Source: a virus. Taken from it: a stretch of 26,604 nt of DNA. The notes below the pieces were generated by a model. The model made no database searches. It had not been told where the DNA came from and was given only the letters and a program-made list of their open reading frames with translations. Numbering within the stretch: the first letter of the stretch is position 1; every line of letters starts with the position of its first letter. Location of the stretch: IMG/VR virus record IMGVR_UViG_3300012228_000015, positions 1 to 26,604 of that record. One strand, given 5' to 3'. The translations under genes and the position numbers were made by a program. This document shows, one piece after another, positions 7,115-18,291 of this stretch.

Positions 7115-7122
7115 GTTCCTTC

Positions 7123-7152
7123 GTTAAAAGCTAACAGCTAACCGCTGCTCTA
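7123..7152. repeat. TTAGCNN heptad array 2
   Basis: Three TTAGC-type units on the minus strand, immediately following the portal stop codon and preceding the minor head gene's ribosome binding site. Confidence 0.8.
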
Positions 7153-8430
7153 AATGCTAATACCCTGAAGACTCTTCGCAAACTGCTCCGCGCTGAACCC
7201 ATCGCCGCTCATGAAATCCTTATCCACATTCTTCAAATACATCGCCGCGATCGATTGGATCACTTCCTCCTTCACACCCAACACCCGCAAGCGTGCCAAC
7301 CCATCCGCCAGGTCACGGATATCCGCCGGAGTCAAAGGCTTTGCCGTGCGCCATACGATTTCATAATCCACACTCGCAGGCAGGATGCCCTTTAACAGCC
7401 ATTGCCGTTCCAACAACGGCTGGATGACCTGTGCCGTCAACCACTCCCGTCCCTGCGAAAGATTGTTCTCATACTCATCCTTCTTCTCGCCCAAAACATC
7501 GCGGTTCAACCCATCGCCATGAACAATCAACTCCATCGGCACATCGCTGGCTGCCATCATCGTCGCCACGTGATGATTCACATCCCCGATCTTGTCAATG
7601 TTGCCATCGCCCTGATGCACATTCAACGAGCTGGGCTTGTTCGAAAACACATCTGTCACCGCCGCCAGCTTGCCGAAGGTTGCCTTGTTATTTTCCTTAT
7701 ACGCTTCCACATCCGCGGGCGACCCTTCGATCACGTGTTGCCTGAGCTGTGACCCTGCCGCTTTGCGACGCACTGCCACATTCAACTCACCATCTACAAC
7801 TTTTTTGTAAGGACCCGTAGCACCCCCATACATCGGCGTGCCATAGCGTTGATTTGATTCATGATCCCAGCGCGCATGGATCATCTGCCACTCCGCAAAA
7901 TAGATCGCATCCTGTGGCGGCTCCCCGCTATACCAGGCGCTCGAACTCATCCAAAACGCCTGCGCTGCATTATCAAATTCATCTGCCTTATTGCTATTGC
8001 GCCGCACTTGCGCAGTGGGCTTGCGCGATGCCTTCGCAATATCCAACGCATCGTTGACCACCAGCTCATAGAACGAATCCCCTTCACGGCTGGTCTCACG
8101 CACCGCATCTTCCAACAATTGATTCAACTTCAAACGCTTCTGCAATTCATCGGCGATCCGTTTCGCCTCCGCATCTTTCGTCTTCACGATGAACCCAGCC
8201 CGCACAATATCACGCGCATAGAACCGATGTGACTTCTTGACAGGTGGATAGGTATCATACATTTCCACGCACGTCTTCATCACCGCGATCCGCTCCCGGT
8301 CCGCCTTCAACTTCTCCCACACCCCCTCCCCCGCAATCGACGGAGCCACAGCCGTGCTCTCATCCGCCGCTTGCGCCGCAGGTACCGGGTTCATAAACGC
8401 CTGAATTCTTTGCCGTAAAGTAGTTGCCAT
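7150..8430 (-). CDS. Portal protein
   Basis: The 426-residue protein has portal hallmarks: VKKSHRFYARDIVRAGFIVK, then a WQMIHARWDHESNQRYGTPM segment close to the usual 'ihfr...s..YG.s.l' portal motif. It also has a helical stem/clip region and GDGLNRDVLGEKKDEYENNL near residue 310. It forms the dodecameric DNA-entry ring at one capsid vertex and works with the terminase. Length is within the normal range for short portal families. GAGGAG lies ~14 bases before the ATG, a rather long spacing. Unusually it is located after the capsid and connector genes rather than directly after terminase. Confidence 0.88.
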   Translation of the reverse strand: MATTLRQRIQAFMNPVPAAQAADESTAVAPSIAGEGVWEKLKADRERIAVMKTCVEMYDTYPPVKKSHRFYARDIVRAGFIVKTKDAEAKRIADELQKRLKLNQLLEDAVRETSREGDSFYELVVNDALDIAKASRKPTAQVRRNSNKADEFDNAAQAFWMSSSAWYSGEPPQDAIYFAEWQMIHARWDHESNQRYGTPMYGGATGPYKKVVDGELNVAVRRKAAGSQLRQHVIEGSPADVEAYKENNKATFGKLAAVTDVFSNKPSSLNVHQGDGNIDKIGDVNHHVATMMAASDVPMELIVHGDGLNRDVLGEKKDEYENNLSQGREWLTAQVIQPLLERQWLLKGILPASVDYEIVWRTAKPLTPADIRDLADGLARLRVLGVKEEVIQSIAAMYLKNVDKDFMSGDGFSAEQFAKSLQGISI

Positions 8431-9382: not shown

Positions 9383-10003
9383 TCATGCCGTCGCATACGT
9401 CCCGTTATAACTCTTGCACGCATCCAAATATTCCTTCTCCGCATCATTCGCATTCTTCCGGCTCGTATCACTCGCCCCTCCGAGATCTTCACTCACCGCG
9501 CCAAAGCTATACTTGATATTGTCACCAGCCTGGTCATTCGTGATCTTCATCAACGCCTTCGATTTTGCCAACAGCAAAACGATCTGCGCTTCGTCCTCGC
9601 CCAGTGTGGTGTAATCGCCAGCGGTCGCCACCCACTGCATCTTATATTTGTAATAGCGCGTCATCGTATATTGCGGAGTGGGATAAAACGTGATTTGCTT
9701 ATTGACGATGGTATGTTCTTCCTCGAAATTCTTGCTGACTGGAATCAACTTATCCGAAACGATCACGCCATCGATGCCAACCAGCGCATCCAATGCAATC
9801 AACTTCAAAAAATCCGTTGCCAGGCTATAGGTCGCCGTGCCTGAAATAATGCTCAATGAAGATATCTTGATCAACCCGCAGCGCCGTGAAAAATCGATCA
9901 CCGCCTCTTCCACCGCCTGGTTATATTGCGCCGTCGTAGGTATCCCGTCCACTGCGGGAACTTCCGATTGTAGATCCGCCACCATCGCCGCCAATGTCGT
10001 CAT
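9383..10003 (-). CDS. Head-tail connector (gp6-like adaptor)
   Basis: The 206-residue protein begins MTTLAAMVADLQSEVPAVDG and contains YNQAVEEAVIDFSRRCGLIK, then beta strands (SISGTATYSLATDFLKLI) and a C-terminal helix, YGTYATA-type end after KEYLDACKSY. Helical N-terminus, middle beta hairpin with a structural residue pattern and long terminal helix are typical of gp6/gp15-like adaptor proteins that bind beneath the portal. Its start overlaps the preceding stop by 4 bases (ATGA). The exact family is not confirmed. Confidence 0.7.
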   Translation of the reverse strand: MTTLAAMVADLQSEVPAVDGIPTTAQYNQAVEEAVIDFSRRCGLIKISSLSIISGTATYSLATDFLKLIALDALVGIDGVIVSDKLIPVSKNFEEEHTIVNKQITFYPTPQYTMTRYYKYKMQWVATAGDYTTLGEDEAQIVLLLAKSKALMKITNDQAGDNIKYSFGAVSEDLGGASDTSRKNANDAEKEYLDACKSYNGTYATA

Positions 10004-10296
10004 TTCTTCTTACCTCGTCTCTTCGCCTTCGCGCTGAGCGGAGGCGTACCCGCCGAAGTCGAAGCGGCAGGCACAACCTCCACCCGCACCTTCAGCAAAG
10101 CGGATTTTTCTTTCTCATCATTGAAAGCTAGATGCTCCTCACGAAGCCCTGATTGCTGCTCTTTTTGGATCTCAAAATCTGCATCCCCTTTCAACTGCTC
10201 CGCCTGCGACGGCGTAATATCCTTCGCCTCACCCGGCTGCAAAATCCGATCCGCAACCATCCGAACTTTTTTACCAATATTCTTTATGATGGGCAT
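10000..10296 (-). CDS. Small head protein, with repeat-derived tail
   Basis: A 98-residue protein (MPIIKNIGKKVRMVADRILQ...). The N-terminal part with ADRILQPGEAKDITPSQAEQL resembles small capsid-associated proteins of siphophages encoded right after the major capsid gene. Residues 78-89 (ASTSAGTPPLSA) are encoded by a 36-bp dispersed repeat, and the last residues are very basic (KAKRRGKKK). The ribosome binding site CAGGAG is 8 bases from the ATG. A decoration or head-completion role is possible but not shown. Confidence 0.68.
   Translation of the reverse strand: MPIIKNIGKKVRMVADRILQPGEAKDITPSQAEQLKGDADFEIQKEQQSGLREEHLAFNDEKEKSALLKVRVEVVPAASTSAGTPPLSAKAKRRGKKK
10031..10066. repeat. 36-bp dispersed element, copy 1 (inside a gene)
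   Basis: GCGCTGAGCGGAGGCGTAC-C-CGCCGAAGTCGAAGCG matches the copy at 14755-14790 at 34 of 36 positions. It lies in the 3' end of the 98-residue gene and is translated as ASTSAGTPPLSA. Confidence 0.88.
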
Positions 10297-10308
10297 CTCA
10301 TTCTCCTG

Positions 10309-10371
10309 CTCCCCCCATTTACTCCCGAAGGGATAAATGGGGGGATGTCTATGTACTCAGAGACAGGGGGG
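10309..10371. repeat. Two-hairpin C/G-rich repeat, copy 6
   Basis: CCCCCCATTTACTCCC-GAA-GGGATAAATGGGGGG followed by TGTCTATGTACTCAGAGACA and GGGGGG. Its right end is adjacent to the TAA of the capsid gene. Confidence 0.9.
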
Positions 10372-12111
10372 TTACGCCTGCGTGGGCACAACACTGCCCT
10401 TGCCGCCGATCGGCGCAAGCGAAGCGTTGTATTCTTCGGCATAATATTGATCAGCCGCCACGAGTTTGCCGTTGCTGTAAGTCGGGTATGGACCCTTCAC
10501 AGTCATCGGCGAGAAAACACGGTGCATCACGAGTTCGCGGTTCAACACCAGGTTGAAGGTATCGCGCATCTCGGGCGTCTCAAAGACATTCAAGCCTTTT
10601 ACCGAACCCACGAAACCAGCCGCGTTCAACAGCGCATTGGGATAACCATCGCGCTTGAAGCCATCCCAGTTGCTCAGATAATCGGAGTTCGTGGCGCTCA
10701 TCACCAACGAAGTCGGTTCATAGAAGCGGTTCAAAACCTTCACTTTCGCTTCGCCGATGCGTTTCACGAAATCGAGATACACAGCATCGCTGATATCCCA
10801 GGCGGCGGTCTTATTGCTTGCCACTGCCAGCGCAGCCATCAAACCTTTTTCGATCAGGCGGCGGTCCTTATCGCGCCGCATTTCGCGGATGATATTTGCC
10901 ATCGTGCGACCAACCGCATCCCAACCGATCTGCGAACGACTGAACACGATCGCTTCACTGGTGATGTAATCCGCCAGGCGATCAGCCGCAGCCGTGATGG
11001 TCTGGTAAGCCAGCGTGGTCTTGGCGCGTTCGATTTCAGCATCCTCGCCCTTGCGGGTCGCATGGTAGCTGTAATCCACCAACACATCGTTGGCTCCAAT
11101 ATCGCCAGCCGCGATCGCGCGGATCTTGCCCAACTCGTAATCGATCACGAAGTCAGTGCCTTCCACGTAGGTGGTGCCAGCTGGGTTGCTCGTCACAACC
11201 ACGGTGCCCGGCACGATGTTCTTTTGCGCCAGGTCATACCAGGTATCTTCCGCGCCCGCGGTTTCAACTTCATCAGTGACTGCCACGGTGAAACCAGTCT
11301 CGCCGGTAAAGGTCTCGTAAAAGATGTTGATCGGCGATTGTTCCATGATGCCAAAATCGAACACATTGGCAGCCACCAGGTTCGGATACGCTTCCGCGAT
11401 CACCGTGCGGCTCACAGAATAGGGCAGGTTCAAATCCGAAGTGGTCTCAGCCTCTTCGAATATCTTCGCCTCGTTCATCAACTGGCGCATGAACATCTTG
11501 TCGAATTTCTCCAACAACATTTCGGTGAAAACCGCCGCGGGACTTTCAGCGCGCAGAACGAGTGTGCGCTTGGCGCGTTTCTCATGCTTGCGCACCGATT
11601 CGGTCAGCTCGAAAGCCACCCGTGCGAATTCCGGCGTGCCGGTCTCATTCTCCAACACATCCCCGATCACCTGAATGCGCTTATTCTTCTCATCGAAGCC
11701 CATGCCCTTCAACACACCCGCAGCCGCCATCTTGCCAAACTGCTTGCGTTGGCTTTCGGCGAATTTCTTCACCGCTTCAGCGTTCGGAAGTTCGGCTTCA
11801 TTGATCGATTCGATGAAAAGCTCGTTCAATGTCTTACCGAAAGGCAGGTCCTTCACAACTTCAGCCTTCGCCTCGCTGATGGCATTCTGCGCCTGGCTCT
11901 CATCAAACTTCTTCGCCTTCTCCACATTGCCCTTCACAGCTTCGATGATGTTCACATCCGCGCCGATCCCCAACGCCGTGCGCAGACTTTCATCCATCTT
12001 CTTCAACTGCTTCTCATTCAGCGCTTCCAACTGCGCTTCGGTCATGCCACGTCCGAAAAGTTCCGGCTGTTCAGCCAATAACTTTTTCAGGTTTTCCAAA
12101 AGTTCGTTCAT
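10372..12111 (-). CDS. Internal in-frame start: scaffold-major capsid protein (nested)
   Basis: Codon 314 of the fusion is an ATG (MNELLENLKKLLAEQPELFG) with AAGGAG 8 bases upstream, spacing ideal for initiation. This would produce a 579-residue protein containing the scaffold (~1-185) and capsid domains but no protease. The upstream residues NSQGEFE just before it are the translated binding site. This resembles lambda C/Nu3, where the scaffold starts inside the protease frame. It would supply many capsid subunits per protease molecule. Initiation here is inferred from sequence, not shown. Confidence 0.7.
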   Translation of the reverse strand: MNELLENLKKLLAEQPELFGRGMTEAQLEALNEKQLKKMDESLRTALGIGADVNIIEAVKGNVEKAKKFDESQAQNAISEAKAEVVKDLPFGKTLNELFIESINEAELPNAEAVKKFAESQRKQFGKMAAAGVLKGMGFDEKNKRIQVIGDVLENETGTPEFARVAFELTESVRKHEKRAKRTLVLRAESPAAVFTEMLLEKFDKMFMRQLMNEAKIFEEAETTSDLNLPYSVSRTVIAEAYPNLVAANVFDFGIMEQSPINIFYETFTGETGFTVAVTDEVETAGAEDTWYDLAQKNIVPGTVVVTSNPAGTTYVEGTDFVIDYELGKIRAIAAGDIGANDVLVDYSYHATRKGEDAEIERAKTTLAYQTITAAADRLADYITSEAIVFSRSQIGWDAVGRTMANIIREMRRDKDRRLIEKGLMAALAVASNKTAAWDISDAVYLDFVKRIGEAKVKVLNRFYEPTSLVMSATNSDYLSNWDGFKRDGYPNALLNAAGFVGSVKGLNVFETPEMRDTFNLVLNRELVMHRVFSPMTVKGPYPTYSNGKLVAADQYYAEEYNASLAPIGGKGSVVPTQA

Positions 12112-13050
12112 TTCAAATTCTCCTTGTGAGTTAATTGATTCGATTAATTGAGCGGCATTCTCAAAGGACGGTTCCAACACCAGGTCAAAGCCCGTGATGT
12201 GCAACTCCGTCACCTCGAAAACTTTATCGTCGCCCTTGCCAATAGATTTACCTTCGCCGTACCCACGCAGGGACACGCCTGGCATCACGCCGCCTTCCAT
12301 CAGGGTTAAGATATCCTTGCCCTTGCTGGTTTCCAGAATACGACCTGAGATATCGACCCGCGTCCCATCGAACGCGATCTCATCCCATTTCGTCACTGTC
12401 TCCAGCAGGTTCGGACGCCCACCCTTATCGGACGGATGTTCTGCCTCACCGAGTACCTGAATCGCACGTCCCTGCCCGGCGCTCTCGTTCAGATGGCTTC
12501 GTAACTCCTCCACCGCCGAACGCACCACTTCAACAGGATATCGGCGCCTGTTGCCATTCACAACATTCGCCGTCATAGCACCTTGTATTTTGATCTTGCG
12601 CGGCTTGCCAGCTTCCCCTTCTTCCAAAGCGATTACCGCATTCACGCGCTCTTCAAACCGCGCCCCGCGTTTCTTCTTTTCCCCTAAATTGGATGCTTCT
12701 CCAATTTGGGGGGATGTCTCCGTACTCGGAGACAGGGGGGTCGCAGGGGGGCTGGTCTGCGGCTGATAAGCCAGCTCCACGATCTCCCACGCATCCCGCG
12801 CCGCGAAACTATATTCATCGCCACTCCTTGAATAAGTGACTTTGAAATATTCATCCATCTTCAATGGGCTATCACCCATGCAACCCACGATCACATGATC
12901 GGCAAAGGTTTCCATGATGTAATAGCTGGGTCCACTTTCCGCATATGGGAACTGTGCTCGAAAAGCCTGCACGATCAAACTCATCGTGTAATCCAACGAC
13001 CCCTTCACCAGCTCGGTGATCAATTTGCCTTTACCAATTTTCTTAGCCAT
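10372..13050 (-). CDS. Prohead protease-scaffold-major capsid fusion polyprotein
   Basis: One 892-residue frame carries: a leader domain (1-95); a repeat-derived linker (about 98-124); a gp21/U35-type prohead protease (about 135-305) with probable catalytic His205 (GEAEHPSDKGG) and Ser260 (MPGVSLRGYG); a charged helical scaffold region (about 314-500); and an HK97-fold major capsid protein (about 500-892, with MRRDKDRRLIEKGLMAAL and GSVKGLNVFETPEM). The protease normally cleaves scaffold and capsid precursors, so self-processing is expected. AAGGAG lies before ATG 13050. These three functions are usually separate genes, so the fusion is unusual; an internal start exists. Confidence 0.9.
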   Translation of the reverse strand: MAKKIGKGKLITELVKGSLDYTMSLIVQAFRAQFPYAESGPSYYIMETFADHVIVGCMGDSPLKMDEYFKVTYSRSGDEYSFAARDAWEIVELAYQPQTSPPATPLSPSTETSPQIGEASNLGEKKKRGARFEERVNAVIALEEGEAGKPRKIKIQGAMTANVVNGNRRRYPVEVVRSAVEELRSHLNESAGQGRAIQVLGEAEHPSDKGGRPNLLETVTKWDEIAFDGTRVDISGRILETSKGKDILTLMEGGVMPGVSLRGYGEGKSIGKGDDKVFEVTELHITGFDLVLEPSFENAAQLIESINSQGEFEMNELLENLKKLLAEQPELFGRGMTEAQLEALNEKQLKKMDESLRTALGIGADVNIIEAVKGNVEKAKKFDESQAQNAISEAKAEVVKDLPFGKTLNELFIESINEAELPNAEAVKKFAESQRKQFGKMAAAGVLKGMGFDEKNKRIQVIGDVLENETGTPEFARVAFELTESVRKHEKRAKRTLVLRAESPAAVFTEMLLEKFDKMFMRQLMNEAKIFEEAETTSDLNLPYSVSRTVIAEAYPNLVAANVFDFGIMEQSPINIFYETFTGETGFTVAVTDEVETAGAEDTWYDLAQKNIVPGTVVVTSNPAGTTYVEGTDFVIDYELGKIRAIAAGDIGANDVLVDYSYHATRKGEDAEIERAKTTLAYQTITAAADRLADYITSEAIVFSRSQIGWDAVGRTMANIIREMRRDKDRRLIEKGLMAALAVASNKTAAWDISDAVYLDFVKRIGEAKVKVLNRFYEPTSLVMSATNSDYLSNWDGFKRDGYPNALLNAAGFVGSVKGLNVFETPEMRDTFNLVLNRELVMHRVFSPMTVKGPYPTYSNGKLVAADQYYAEEYNASLAPIGGKGSVVPTQA
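12680..12752. repeat. Two-hairpin C/G-rich repeat, copy 7 (inside the capsid polyprotein)
   Basis: CCCCTAAATTGGATGCTTCTCCAATTTGGGGGG, written here in two halves, followed by TGTCTCCGTACTCGGAGACA and GGGGGG. It is translated in frame as residues ~98-124 (TPLSPSTETSPQIGEASNLG) between the leader domain and protease. Confidence 0.88.
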
Positions 13051-13063
13051 AATTTTCTCCTTG

Positions 13064-13103: not shown

Positions 13104-13138
13104 CCTAACCGCTAACCGCTAACAGCTAAAAGCTGCTC
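13104..13138. repeat. TTAGCNN heptad array 3
   Basis: Four TTAGC-type units, starting inside the terminase C-terminus where they encode LLAVSG, and supplying its stop codon. Confidence 0.85.
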
Positions 13139-14713
13139 GCCAAATAGCTCCTCCGCACTCACCACCACCGCCTCACTACTCGCCGTGCGCCCCATCCCGC
13201 TCACGTTATCCGCGATCATCTGATTCCCCCCGCTCACCGTATCGATCTCATCATCATTGCGCCCATTCGGGAACGAAGCCGCCGTCCGCATAAACGATAA
13301 ATTCCACGGACCGCGTACCAGCGTCACCTTCCCAGCCTTCGCCCGCAAACGCCACGGCTGCGCCCACTGCGTCTTATCGCCGCCGCCGCTCGTGCGTGTC
13401 ATCCCAATGATCGCGATCTTCGCCAGGTCACGGTCTGCCATAAACTGCTTCACCACCAACGACTGAAACGCATTATCCTCAATGCCCCAGATCGTCCCAT
13501 GCTCAGAATCTGAAAGCATCAACGCCTTCAGGCTTCCCAAAAACAGATCAAGATCGCGTTCCTTCAACATATCGCGGATAAACTCATCGCCTGCATCGTT
13601 CATCGCCACCGCCGCCGTCGCATTGAAATCGCTTTGCTCCGTCTTCCCCAAAGCCAGATCAACATACCGATACCACTGCAACCCCTTCGGCGCTTGCTCC
13701 ACGATCCCAAAATAATCCTCATCAAAGAAATTACCTTCAGCCAAACGCGGCATCTGCTGGAATTGCGCCTGGAATTCAAAATCATCCATATTCACAGCCA
13801 GCGCCTTCAACAGATCCGCATCGTGTTTCTGTTCCCACAACGGCTCGCCTGCACTGCGACCCAACTGATCGCCTGCCATCGGCACGAACACACCGCGCAA
13901 TAAATTCTCCACAAACTCCGCCTGCGTCTTCGGATACTGATCATCCTCCAACGCCACCGCGGGCATAAACACCACATCCCACTGATCCGCTTCCGGGTCG
14001 CTCACCATCGCCTTCAACAACTCACCGCTCAGATCTTCCACATCCCACCGTGTCATGATGACAATGATCGCCGCATGATCTTCGAGACGTGTATAAGCCG
14101 TGGACCGATACCACTCATAATTATCCCGTCGCAAAGTTTCGGAACTCGCCTCTTTCCGACCCTTGACCGGATCATCAATAATGAACAGATTCGCCCCGAA
14201 GCCTGTGATACCGCCGCCCACACCCGCCGCCAGCATCCCGCCATTCCGGTCTGCGATCTCCCATGAAGCGCTTGCCTTGCTCTCCGGGTCCAACATCACC
14301 GGCTCATTCGTGGATGACAACGCCCCAAACACCTGTGAATATTCCTCGCTCATGATCAAGTCACGTACCGCCTTCGAATGTTTGCTTGCCAGGTCTGCGT
14401 TATACGATGTCATAATGATGCGCAGGTCCGGGTTCTTCCCCATCAACCACGCCGGGAACTTACGTGAGGCAGTTTGGCTTTTCCAATACCGTGGCGGCAT
14501 AAACACCATCAAACGCGAAATACCTTCCTTGCCATTGCTCAGAATATACTTCGCCACCTGCTCCAACTTATGCCCCAACACCTGCACATGCCGCGCCTCA
14601 GTCGGATGCTTCTTATCCACGTGACGGCAGAATGACAAAAAATCACGCTCAGCCATCAACCGGCTGCGGATCTCACTCTTTACCGCCTCACGTTTCACAT
14701 CAGCTTTAGGCAT
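13112..14713 (-). CDS. terL: Terminase large subunit
   Basis: This packaging motor ATPase/nuclease has 533 residues from the chosen ATG. Near residues 72-80 is the Walker A MPPRYWKSQ, where the usual Gly before Lys is Trp; Walker B LFIIDDP is at ~176-181; the coupling motif IMTRW is at ~219-223. A nuclease domain has DLALGKTEQSDF, EDNAFQ and NGRNDDEID. ATG 14713 overlaps the small-subunit stop by 8 bases; earlier ATGs at 14722-14752 lie in the upstream gene. The last residues LLAVSG come from a heptad array. Family assignment is firm. Confidence 0.93.
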   Translation of the reverse strand: MPKADVKREAVKSEIRSRLMAERDFLSFCRHVDKKHPTEARHVQVLGHKLEQVAKYILSNGKEGISRLMVFMPPRYWKSQTASRKFPAWLMGKNPDLRIIMTSYNADLASKHSKAVRDLIMSEEYSQVFGALSSTNEPVMLDPESKASASWEIADRNGGMLAAGVGGGITGFGANLFIIDDPVKGRKEASSETLRRDNYEWYRSTAYTRLEDHAAIIVIMTRWDVEDLSGELLKAMVSDPEADQWDVVFMPAVALEDDQYPKTQAEFVENLLRGVFVPMAGDQLGRSAGEPLWEQKHDADLLKALAVNMDDFEFQAQFQQMPRLAEGNFFDEDYFGIVEQAPKGLQWYRYVDLALGKTEQSDFNATAAVAMNDAGDEFIRDMLKERDLDLFLGSLKALMLSDSEHGTIWGIEDNAFQSLVVKQFMADRDLAKIAIIGMTRTSGGGDKTQWAQPWRLRAKAGKVTLVRGPWNLSFMRTAASFPNGRNDDEIDTVSGGNQMIADNVSGMGRTASSEAVVVSAEELFGEQLLAVSG

Positions 14714-15476
14714 CTTCTTCATCCTCATAAGCGTCATCCGCGCTGATATCATCCGCGCTGAGCGGAGGCGTACTCGCCGCAGTCGAAGCGTCGCTAATCG
14801 CTAAAAGCTCATCGCTCGAAAGCTCCTCCTCCAACTCCTTCATCAACTCCATCGCATCCGCCCCCAGCGTTTCCAACAACTGCGCCGTGGGCAGTTTCTT
14901 CAACTGATCCAACAACTTATGCCCAACCCCAACCCCTTCGCTATTTTCGATCTTCTGCCTCGGGGTGTAATCCTTCGTCATCTCAAAGAACAACCTGCGG
15001 TCAGGGTTCGCGCGATAACTCGGGTCACTCGCCACACTCCCCAACGCATGGAACGCGCCCGGACGATATTCCAACATCGATTCCGCCTGCAACTGCGAGA
15101 TCATCATGTCAATTTCGGGATACTTCTTCCGCCACGTTGCGATCGCGCGGTCCGAAGTTAATCCCAAAATTTCAGTTGCCAACTTATCCTGTGTCTCAGG
15201 GTAGCGATACTTCTTCGGCATCGTCGCCCACGCCACATACGCCGCGATCCGCGGACGCACATTCGAATTCAATAATTGCTGATACACATCCGCCCACGAT
15301 GGGATCTCTTTGCCCTCTTCGATCTTCTTCGTCTCGATCAATACCTTGCGGAACATCATTTCCTTAGCCCGCACATCCGCAACCGAAAGCAGAACTTTGT
15401 CATCGGCATCCTCAGCATTCGAGACACCGCTGGCAAAATTCTCCAACTCCAATTGCGTAATTTTTCGAACGCTCAT
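14706..15476 (-). CDS. terS: Terminase small subunit (phBC6A51-like)
   Basis: The 256-residue protein recognises phage DNA for packaging. Residues ~80-122 (AAYVAWATMPKKYRYPETQD, then TEILGLTSDRAIATWRKKYP) form the helix-turn-helix of phBC6A51-type terminase small subunits. A helical oligomerisation region follows, ending in acidic ELMKELEEELSSDE. Residues 224-241 (LLAISDASTAASTPPLSA) are encoded by two adjacent dispersed repeats (heptads plus 36-bp element), then an acidic DEEDA end. Its ATG overlaps the lysin stop by 4 bases, and its stop overlaps the large subunit. Confidence 0.88.
   Translation of the reverse strand: MSVRKITQLELENFASGVSNAEDADDKVLLSVADVRAKEMMFRKVLIETKKIEEGKEIPSWADVYQQLLNSNVRPRIAAYVAWATMPKKYRYPETQDKLATEILGLTSDRAIATWRKKYPEIDMMISQLQAESMLEYRPGAFHALGSVASDPSYRANPDRRLFFEMTKDYTPRQKIENSEGVGVGHKLLDQLKKLPTAQLLETLGADAMELMKELEEELSSDELLAISDASTAASTPPLSADDISADDAYEDEEDA
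14755..14790. repeat. 36-bp dispersed element, copy 2 (inside terS)
   Basis: Same element as at 10031-10066 (34 of 36 bases identical), same orientation and reading frame. It encodes ASTAASTPPLSA. Confidence 0.88.
14791..14823. repeat. TTAGCNN heptad array 4 (inside terS)
   Basis: Two full TTAGC units plus degenerate neighbours, abutting the 36-bp element. Only two units are present, leaving one open frame, translated as LLAISD. Confidence 0.7.
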
Positions 15477-18238: not shown

Positions 18239-18263
18239 ATCTCTATTTTACTCCTTCTGGCAG

Positions 18264-18291
18264 ATCGCCAACAGCTAATCGCTAAAAGCCA
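18264..18291. repeat. TTAGCNN heptad array 6
   Basis: Two TTAGC units with TTGGC variants on either side. It supplies the last codons (LAFSD) and the stop of the membrane protein. Confidence 0.75.

Follow-up and report, generated by a model that had tools for sequence, protein, structure and literature searches.

Phage lambda C/Nu3 is a protease-scaffold gene in which an in-frame internal start gives rise to the scaffold alone. In HK97, gp5 consists of a delta domain followed by the shell protein, and the scaffold is removed by the protease gp4, the product of a separate gene. T4-type phages, including Vibrio phage F86, encode an S77 protease, a scaffold and a capsid protein in the order gp21-gp22-gp23, each as a separate gene. 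T4 proheads contain roughly 55–100 proteases and more than 900 capsid subunits (PMC9958956, PMC5694885). Genes in which protease and capsid are fused are already known, with published examples in Arthrobacter phages and in RRH1 (PMC5513430); we found no mention of an internal start in that report. Such a gene poses a dosage puzzle, as reading it into one product gives one protease per subunit, in contrast to the ratio in the T4 prohead. In open-access papers, we found no description of a nested start that excises the protease from the capsid protein. One fused gene, APU89242 of Virus Rctr41k (KX853513.1), is annotated as a single product, ‘putative phage capsid protein and protease’, with no internal start. 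The Methylomirabilis enrichment virome paper that is possibly the source of Rctr41k mentions neither that name nor proteomics (PMC5099504).

Here, we analyzed the 26,604-base virus record IMGVR_UViG_3300012228_000015 (the window). It carries a fused leader-protease-scaffold-capsid ORF that runs from an ATG at 13050 to 10372 on the minus strand (892 codons; Table 1). The initial annotation had given this single frame as 10372–13050 without a strand, and the frame proved to be a real ORF. APU89242 belongs to the same gene family and is 60% identical over 99% of the chain, and Rctr41k shows the same fusion, the same neighbors, and an AAGGAG with an ATG at the same internal place. As in lambda C/Nu3, a conserved in-frame start lies between protease and scaffold. 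In lambda, however, the capsid protein is encoded by a separate gene and the protease is of another family; moreover, the nested product here would not be scaffold only, as the internal frame reads on across the capsid domain and shares the stop of the full-length ORF. The gene would thus work like lambda C/Nu3 but is no member of that system, and the earlier description of C/Nu3-like nesting extended to the whole capsid gene is supported. The predicted 64 kDa product has the layout of HK97 gp5, and the protease is predicted to remove the scaffold as in HK97, but gp4 belongs to a different protease family and the identity to the HK97 shell domain is only ~10%. With T4-type phages, including F86, the locus shares the S77 protease and the order of the three functions, which are separate genes in those phages.

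Table 1 Features of the locus in the window.
Feature	Position	Strand	Basis or remark
Terminase large subunit, upstream neighbor	13112..14752	-	phrog_38, E 5e-92
Shine-Dalgarno (SD) AAGGAG of the full-length start, before ATG at 13050	13056..13061	-	sequence
Fused leader-protease-scaffold-capsid ORF	10372..13050	-	892 aa, 98.3 kDa
Leader domain, residues 1–98	12757..13050	-	one helix and five-stranded sheet, AF2 pLDDT 88.7
Disordered leader-protease linker, residues 99–130	12660..12756	-	pLDDT <50 at 99–128
S77 (T4 gp21-like) protease domain, residues 128–295	12166..12669	-	PF03420, 5jbl match
Protease His205	12438-12436	-	invariant
Protease Ser260	12273-12271	-	invariant
L-x-E/S (I-E304/S305), putative site of self-cleavage that would release the protease	12136..12144	-	conserved motif
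Internal SD AAGGAG, 8-base spacer	12120..12125	-	sequence and conservation
Internal start codon ATG (Met314)	12109..12111	-	76 ATG and 2 GTG among 78 relatives
Scaffold (delta-like) domain, residues 314–484, helical	11599..12111	-	AF2 helices 315–450
VLE467 and LTE484, candidate scaffold-capsid maturation cleavage sites	11599..11658	-	conserved hydrophobic-x-E
Mature capsid protein, residues 485–892, predicted 45.2 kDa	10375..11598	-	HK97 fold
Head-tail adaptor (SU10-type), downstream	9383..10003	-	PF24175, E 1e-8
Portal / head morphogenesis protein	7150..8430	-	phrog_19480, E 2e-21; phrog_9232
Two-hairpin repeat copies	1030, 4522, 5432, 8448, 10311, 12681, 15549, 17363, 19160, 19503, 19760, 22656, 24185, 26319		
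GCTAA(A/C)(A/C)GCT-like repeats	606-643, 7117-7146, 13105-13134, 14787-14816, 18261-18290, 23010-23053		

Gene context and domain architecture

The surroundings of the fused ORF are those of an ordinary tailed-phage head cluster. The terminase large subunit lies upstream, and an SU10-type adaptor, a neck protein, portal/head morphogenesis proteins, a major tail protein, a tail assembly chaperone and a tape measure protein are found downstream, so that the capsid ORF is flanked by terminase on one side and adaptor/portal genes on the other. An antisense ORF at 10153–12081 (642 aa) was rejected as a gene, since it overlaps the conserved fused gene and nothing points to its use.

The domain reading first made from the letters alone (leader, gp21-like protease, scaffold and HK97-fold capsid protein) was borne out by profile matches, structure prediction and structure matches. 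An AlphaFold2 model of the 892-residue chain, a check that the initial annotation had proposed, was built with 65 sequences and resolved the protease, helical scaffold and capsid domains. With a mean pLDDT of 75.8 and a pTM of 0.46, the domains of this model can be trusted, but not their arrangement relative to each other. The layout consists of a leader (residues 1–95), the protease (~128–295), a disordered linker (294–315) and scaffold helices (315–450), followed by the capsid domain.

The protease matched Pfam Peptidase_S77 (PF03420) at residues 141–299 (E 7e-17, 61.9 bits against a cut-off of 27) as well as the head maturation protease family phrog_207 (E 2.5e-26), and its predicted fold superimposed on T4 gp21 (5jbl_B) with Z 18.2 and an rmsd of 2.4 Å over 147 residues. 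His205, Ser260 and Asp289 were invariant in 65 aligned relatives. The first two, which had been named at the outset, align with the T4 gp21 motifs in the segments GEL(N/E)-x-P and G-V-x-S-R-G (GELN-x-P and GVASRG in gp21). In 5jbl, an Ala stands at the position of the aligned catalytic His, which we take to be an inactivating mutation of the crystallized chain. Profile match above cut-off, gp21 fold and catalytic His and Ser together place the domain in peptidase family S77.

The predicted capsid fold matched the T4 capsid protein 7vrt with Z 18.9 (242 residues) and HK97 Prohead II (2gp1) with Z 16.7, identifying an HK97-fold major capsid protein on the predicted structure. It contains an inserted beta-rich domain near residues 588–666 (11053–11289) that matches the tail-tube/Ig-like profiles phrog_807 and NF052337, the latter below cut-off. 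Identity as a tail protein was rejected for this segment, which we read instead as a domain within the capsid protein; it looks as though the shell protein had taken up a domain of tail type.

The shape of the leader is cystatin/NTF2-like at best, with weak structure matches (best Z 6.0) and weak BFVD matches. The leader is missing in eleven relatives (L051, L053, L058, L059, L061, L063, L066, L068, L072, L081 and L088); these begin at the protease and retain the fusion and the internal start codon, L088 lacking an SD there.

Distribution and age of the fusion

The initial annotation had proposed that a stop codon between protease and capsid genes was lost, and that the old ribosome binding site thereby became codons (QGEFE). 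We scanned IMG/VR, GTDB genomes and GenBank phages and obtained 241 matching sequences, many of which come from shared contigs and overlap one another. Protease and capsid shared one ORF in 229 of these 241 loci, overlapping ones included. The remaining 12 comprised 11 loci truncated by the contig end and one (L130) with an apparent frameshift near the contig start. L130 was rejected as a capsid-only ORF, as the preceding sequence is open in another frame up to the contig start, which probably reflects a frameshift; a further frameshift was found within the capsid domain of L057. Hence, all relatives whose sequence is long enough to be assessed carry the fusion, at identities down to ~40%.

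The initial annotation had also called for a comparison with relatives to find the lost stop, and in this comparison no relative had a stop codon at the junction. Scans with capsid-only and protease-only profiles found no separate protease or capsid genes among the relatives. The stop loss proposed for this lineage, or the masking of a stop by a sequencing error, would fit the T4-type relatives, in which the same functions occur in the same order as separate genes. However, the fusion spans ~40–77% identity, independent metagenomes and GenBank KX853513, and we consider such a loss or error extremely improbable. As all judgeable relatives are fused, a lost or hidden stop in this phage is excluded, including a sequencing error near codon 310, and the comparison refutes stop loss as a recent or local event. 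The presence of the fusion in every judgeable relative to ~40% identity indicates that it predates the family and is an ancestral trait within it. An ancestral split state can be deduced only from the T4-type gene order, because the searches revealed no sister lineage in which this capsid protein is encoded by an unfused gene.

Among relatives found in named bacterial genome bins, the closest (L097, 77% identity) comes from an Anaerolineales MAG, which makes a host in the Chloroflexota plausible. In L087 (3689–4300), the fused ORF can extend upstream and then opens with an unrelated-looking N-terminal stretch, MPYSNEHSARIKEPGDFE; within this extension, the start MTKKIQRGKPLE resembles that of other relatives. 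The extension may represent an additional module fused to the gene, or it may point to a third nested start.

The internal start at codon 314 and its predicted products

The initial annotation had placed an AAGGAG 8 bases upstream of the ATG at codon 314 (12111), and this was exact. We examined the site in 78 non-redundant relatives spanning the junction, the record itself included. An in-frame start was present in 78/78 (76 ATG and 2 GTG), no more than two codons away from the aligned codon 314, and Met314 was nearly invariant in alignment A2. The start was preceded by an SD of four or more bases in 77/78 relatives and by one of five or more in 70/78 (90%), as compared to 30% and 7%, respectively, for 1273 other internal Met codons. 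At the gene start itself, a start codon with an SD of five or more bases was found in ~80% of leader-bearing relatives. When all alignment columns were scanned with one start-plus-SD rule, codon 314 scored 0.90, the true gene start 0.81, and all other positions 0.41 or less. The boundary between scaffold and capsid was rejected as the site of a further internal start, as the rule held there in just 23/79 relatives, seemingly owing to GTG valine codons.

Redrawing synonymous codons from each gene's own usage, with amino acids fixed, predicted SDs of this length (5 bases or more) in 26.4 ± 3.8 relatives, against 70 observed. The SD core occurs in two codon registers, G|GAG (GAG being Glu in frame) in 48 relatives and GGA|G (Gly-Glu/Asp) in 28. 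The capsid-domain tree requires 14 register changes, and well-supported branches make at least 13 of these unavoidable. The GGAG core is nevertheless kept in 76/77 relatives, including all 21 representatives less than 60% identical, and the spacing to the start is mostly 5 or 8 bases. Retention of the core through ~14 register changes indicates that selection acts on the nucleotide signal and not on the peptide. The relatives are phylogenetically linked, so that these counts are not independent, which the tree corrects in part. The ribosome binding site is still under selection, and not the fossil that had been supposed. L088 is the one plain exception, keeping the ATG and lacking the SD, and a cruder scan found no clear site in some of the most distant loci (L104, L107, L117, L200, L211 and L215). 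The start and SD at codon 314 are conserved and selected far beyond chance; like the fusion and its domains, this is established by computation.

The mean 60-nt folding energy was −7.7 kcal/mol at codon 314 and −7.4 kcal/mol at codon 1, compared to −15.3 ± 2.5 kcal/mol along the ORF. Low G+C at the junction accounts for part of this weak mRNA structure, but genuine starts commonly show both features. In the AlphaFold2 model, codon 314 belongs to the linker with the lowest confidence (294–315), between two folded domains. SD-like pausing within genes has been proposed, and the conserved SD, exactly at the domain boundary, might be a pause site that helps the protease to fold before scaffold synthesis, with no initiation. 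Such a pause would need no start codon at a fixed spacing, yet all 78 relatives keep one and both non-ATG exceptions are GTG; we regard this explanation as very improbable.

S77 enzymes cut at hydrophobic-x-E-type sites. In the fused protein, E304, E467 and E484 are candidate S77 cleavage sites by their motif: hydrophobic-x-E is kept at 304 in 76/78 relatives, at VLE467 in 78/79 and at LTE484 in 79/79. AxE cleavage sites are used in SPN3US (PMC5694885). The conserved L-x-E/S at 304, ten residues before codon 314, opens an alternative in which the full-length chain alone is made, self-cleavage there separates the protease at a 1:1 ratio to the capsid protein, and the SD and ATG are incidental. 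The resulting fragment (305–892, 65.0 kDa) would be nearly identical to the product of internal initiation, and the upstream start is likewise well conserved. Self-cleavage alone, however, leaves unexplained why the start codon is conserved, with ATG swapped for GTG only, why the SD persists, usually 5 or 8 bases from the start, through ~14 register changes, and why the mRNA is unstructured at codon 314, and we consider it unlikely. Internal initiation and cleavage at 304 may well operate together.

We therefore favor nested initiation, and consider it highly probable that one mRNA gives two in-frame products that co-assemble, with the protease tethered inside and S77 cleavage at hydrophobic-x-E sites. 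As read from the gene, the two products are likely a 98 kDa protease-scaffold-capsid and a 64 kDa scaffold-capsid protein (calculated masses 98.3 kDa for the full-length chain and 64.0 kDa from codon 314). The longer chain, including the leader, would arise from ribosomes initiating at 13050 and the shorter one from de novo initiation at codon 314. Because both contain the same scaffold and shell domain, they would be expected to co-assemble in one procapsid, where tethering would put the protease inside. Cleavage at E304 would then free the protease, and cleavage at E467/E484 would strip the scaffold to leave a capsid protein of ~45 kDa.

A conserved internal start solves the dosage puzzle in principle, and in a form testable with one gene. 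The initial annotation had seen in it a way to make few protease and many capsid copies. In the record, SD pairing and local structure are −8.5 and −4.5 kcal/mol at one start versus −8.5 and −4.3 kcal/mol at the other, and across relatives the internal start was predicted to be the better one in just 31/68. SD pairing and local structure thus gave no difference in product ratio; the signals are alike, from which comparable initiation is predicted, and a capsid excess is not. Any excess of the short form, like the making of both chains, is something we infer. In this large family of phages, all of them uncultivated, annotation as a single product is probably wrong; the same may hold for the actinophage fusions, whose phages grow readily in the laboratory.

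Actinophage fusions and dispersed repeats

The actinophage ‘major capsid and protease fusion protein’ (Arthrobacter Decurro/Maggie type, Rhodococcus RRH1 and Gordonia Coeur) also has protease, linker/scaffold and capsid in one gene, and such fusions are represented by the NCBIfam model NF045541. Its protease is HK97-type (TIGR01543 match, below cut-off), in contrast to the S77 protease of the record ORF. The record gene likewise has protease and capsid in one ORF, but its protein matches S77 and neither TIGR01543 nor NF045541, and tblastn with its capsid domain recovered no actinophage fusion; it resembles these fusions in layout and is no member of them.

In a small, hand-picked set of 14 actinophage fusions, an in-frame ATG with SD-like bases was present at or near the protease-capsid junction in 12. 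The mRNA structure at this ATG was mostly strikingly weak, with junction versus mean folding energies of −4.1 versus −21.0 for Coeur, −4.4 versus −22.6 for Jeanie, and −2.7 versus −16.8 for BlueFeather. The ATG was aligned within the RRH1/GMA5/GRU3/Coeur/Jeanie group, and several other fusions had a weak SD (GAGG, AGGT or AAGG). The candidate start would be codon 307 in Coeur and codon 160 in Decurro. The Gordonia phages SallySpecial and EpicDab showed no clear start site at the junction. The set suggests convergence on a junction start. With slightly more doubt than belief, we propose that tailed-phage protease-capsid fusions are as a rule not one-product genes, and that a junction start evolved or was kept in at least two unrelated lineages, the S77-type and the HK97-type actinophage fusions. 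If so, only some of the shell subunits entering the procapsid would carry a protease, and nested initiation would serve these phages as frameshifting serves retroviruses in controlling Gag/Gag-Pol dosage. In SallySpecial (L246:553-2460) and EpicDab (L247:409-2295), an ATG with AAGGA lies before the protease domain, at codons 134 and 117, respectively; a start there would yield a protease-capsid protein without the N-terminal region.

The window also contains a dispersed two-hairpin repeat in ~14 copies, of the form CCCCCCAAAT-(variable stem)-ATTTGGGGGGATG-(variable stem)-CAGGGGGG, in which the stems are variable yet still paired in most copies. Nearly all copies are intergenic; two lie in other ORFs and one (12681–12740) in the leader-protease linker of the capsid ORF. 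Short matches to the repeat were seen in a few relatives (L005, L008, L044, L059 and L060), and it is a candidate REP/MITE-like or gene-end element. A second family of dispersed short repeats, with GCTAA(A/C)(A/C)GCT-like units, is also mostly intergenic.
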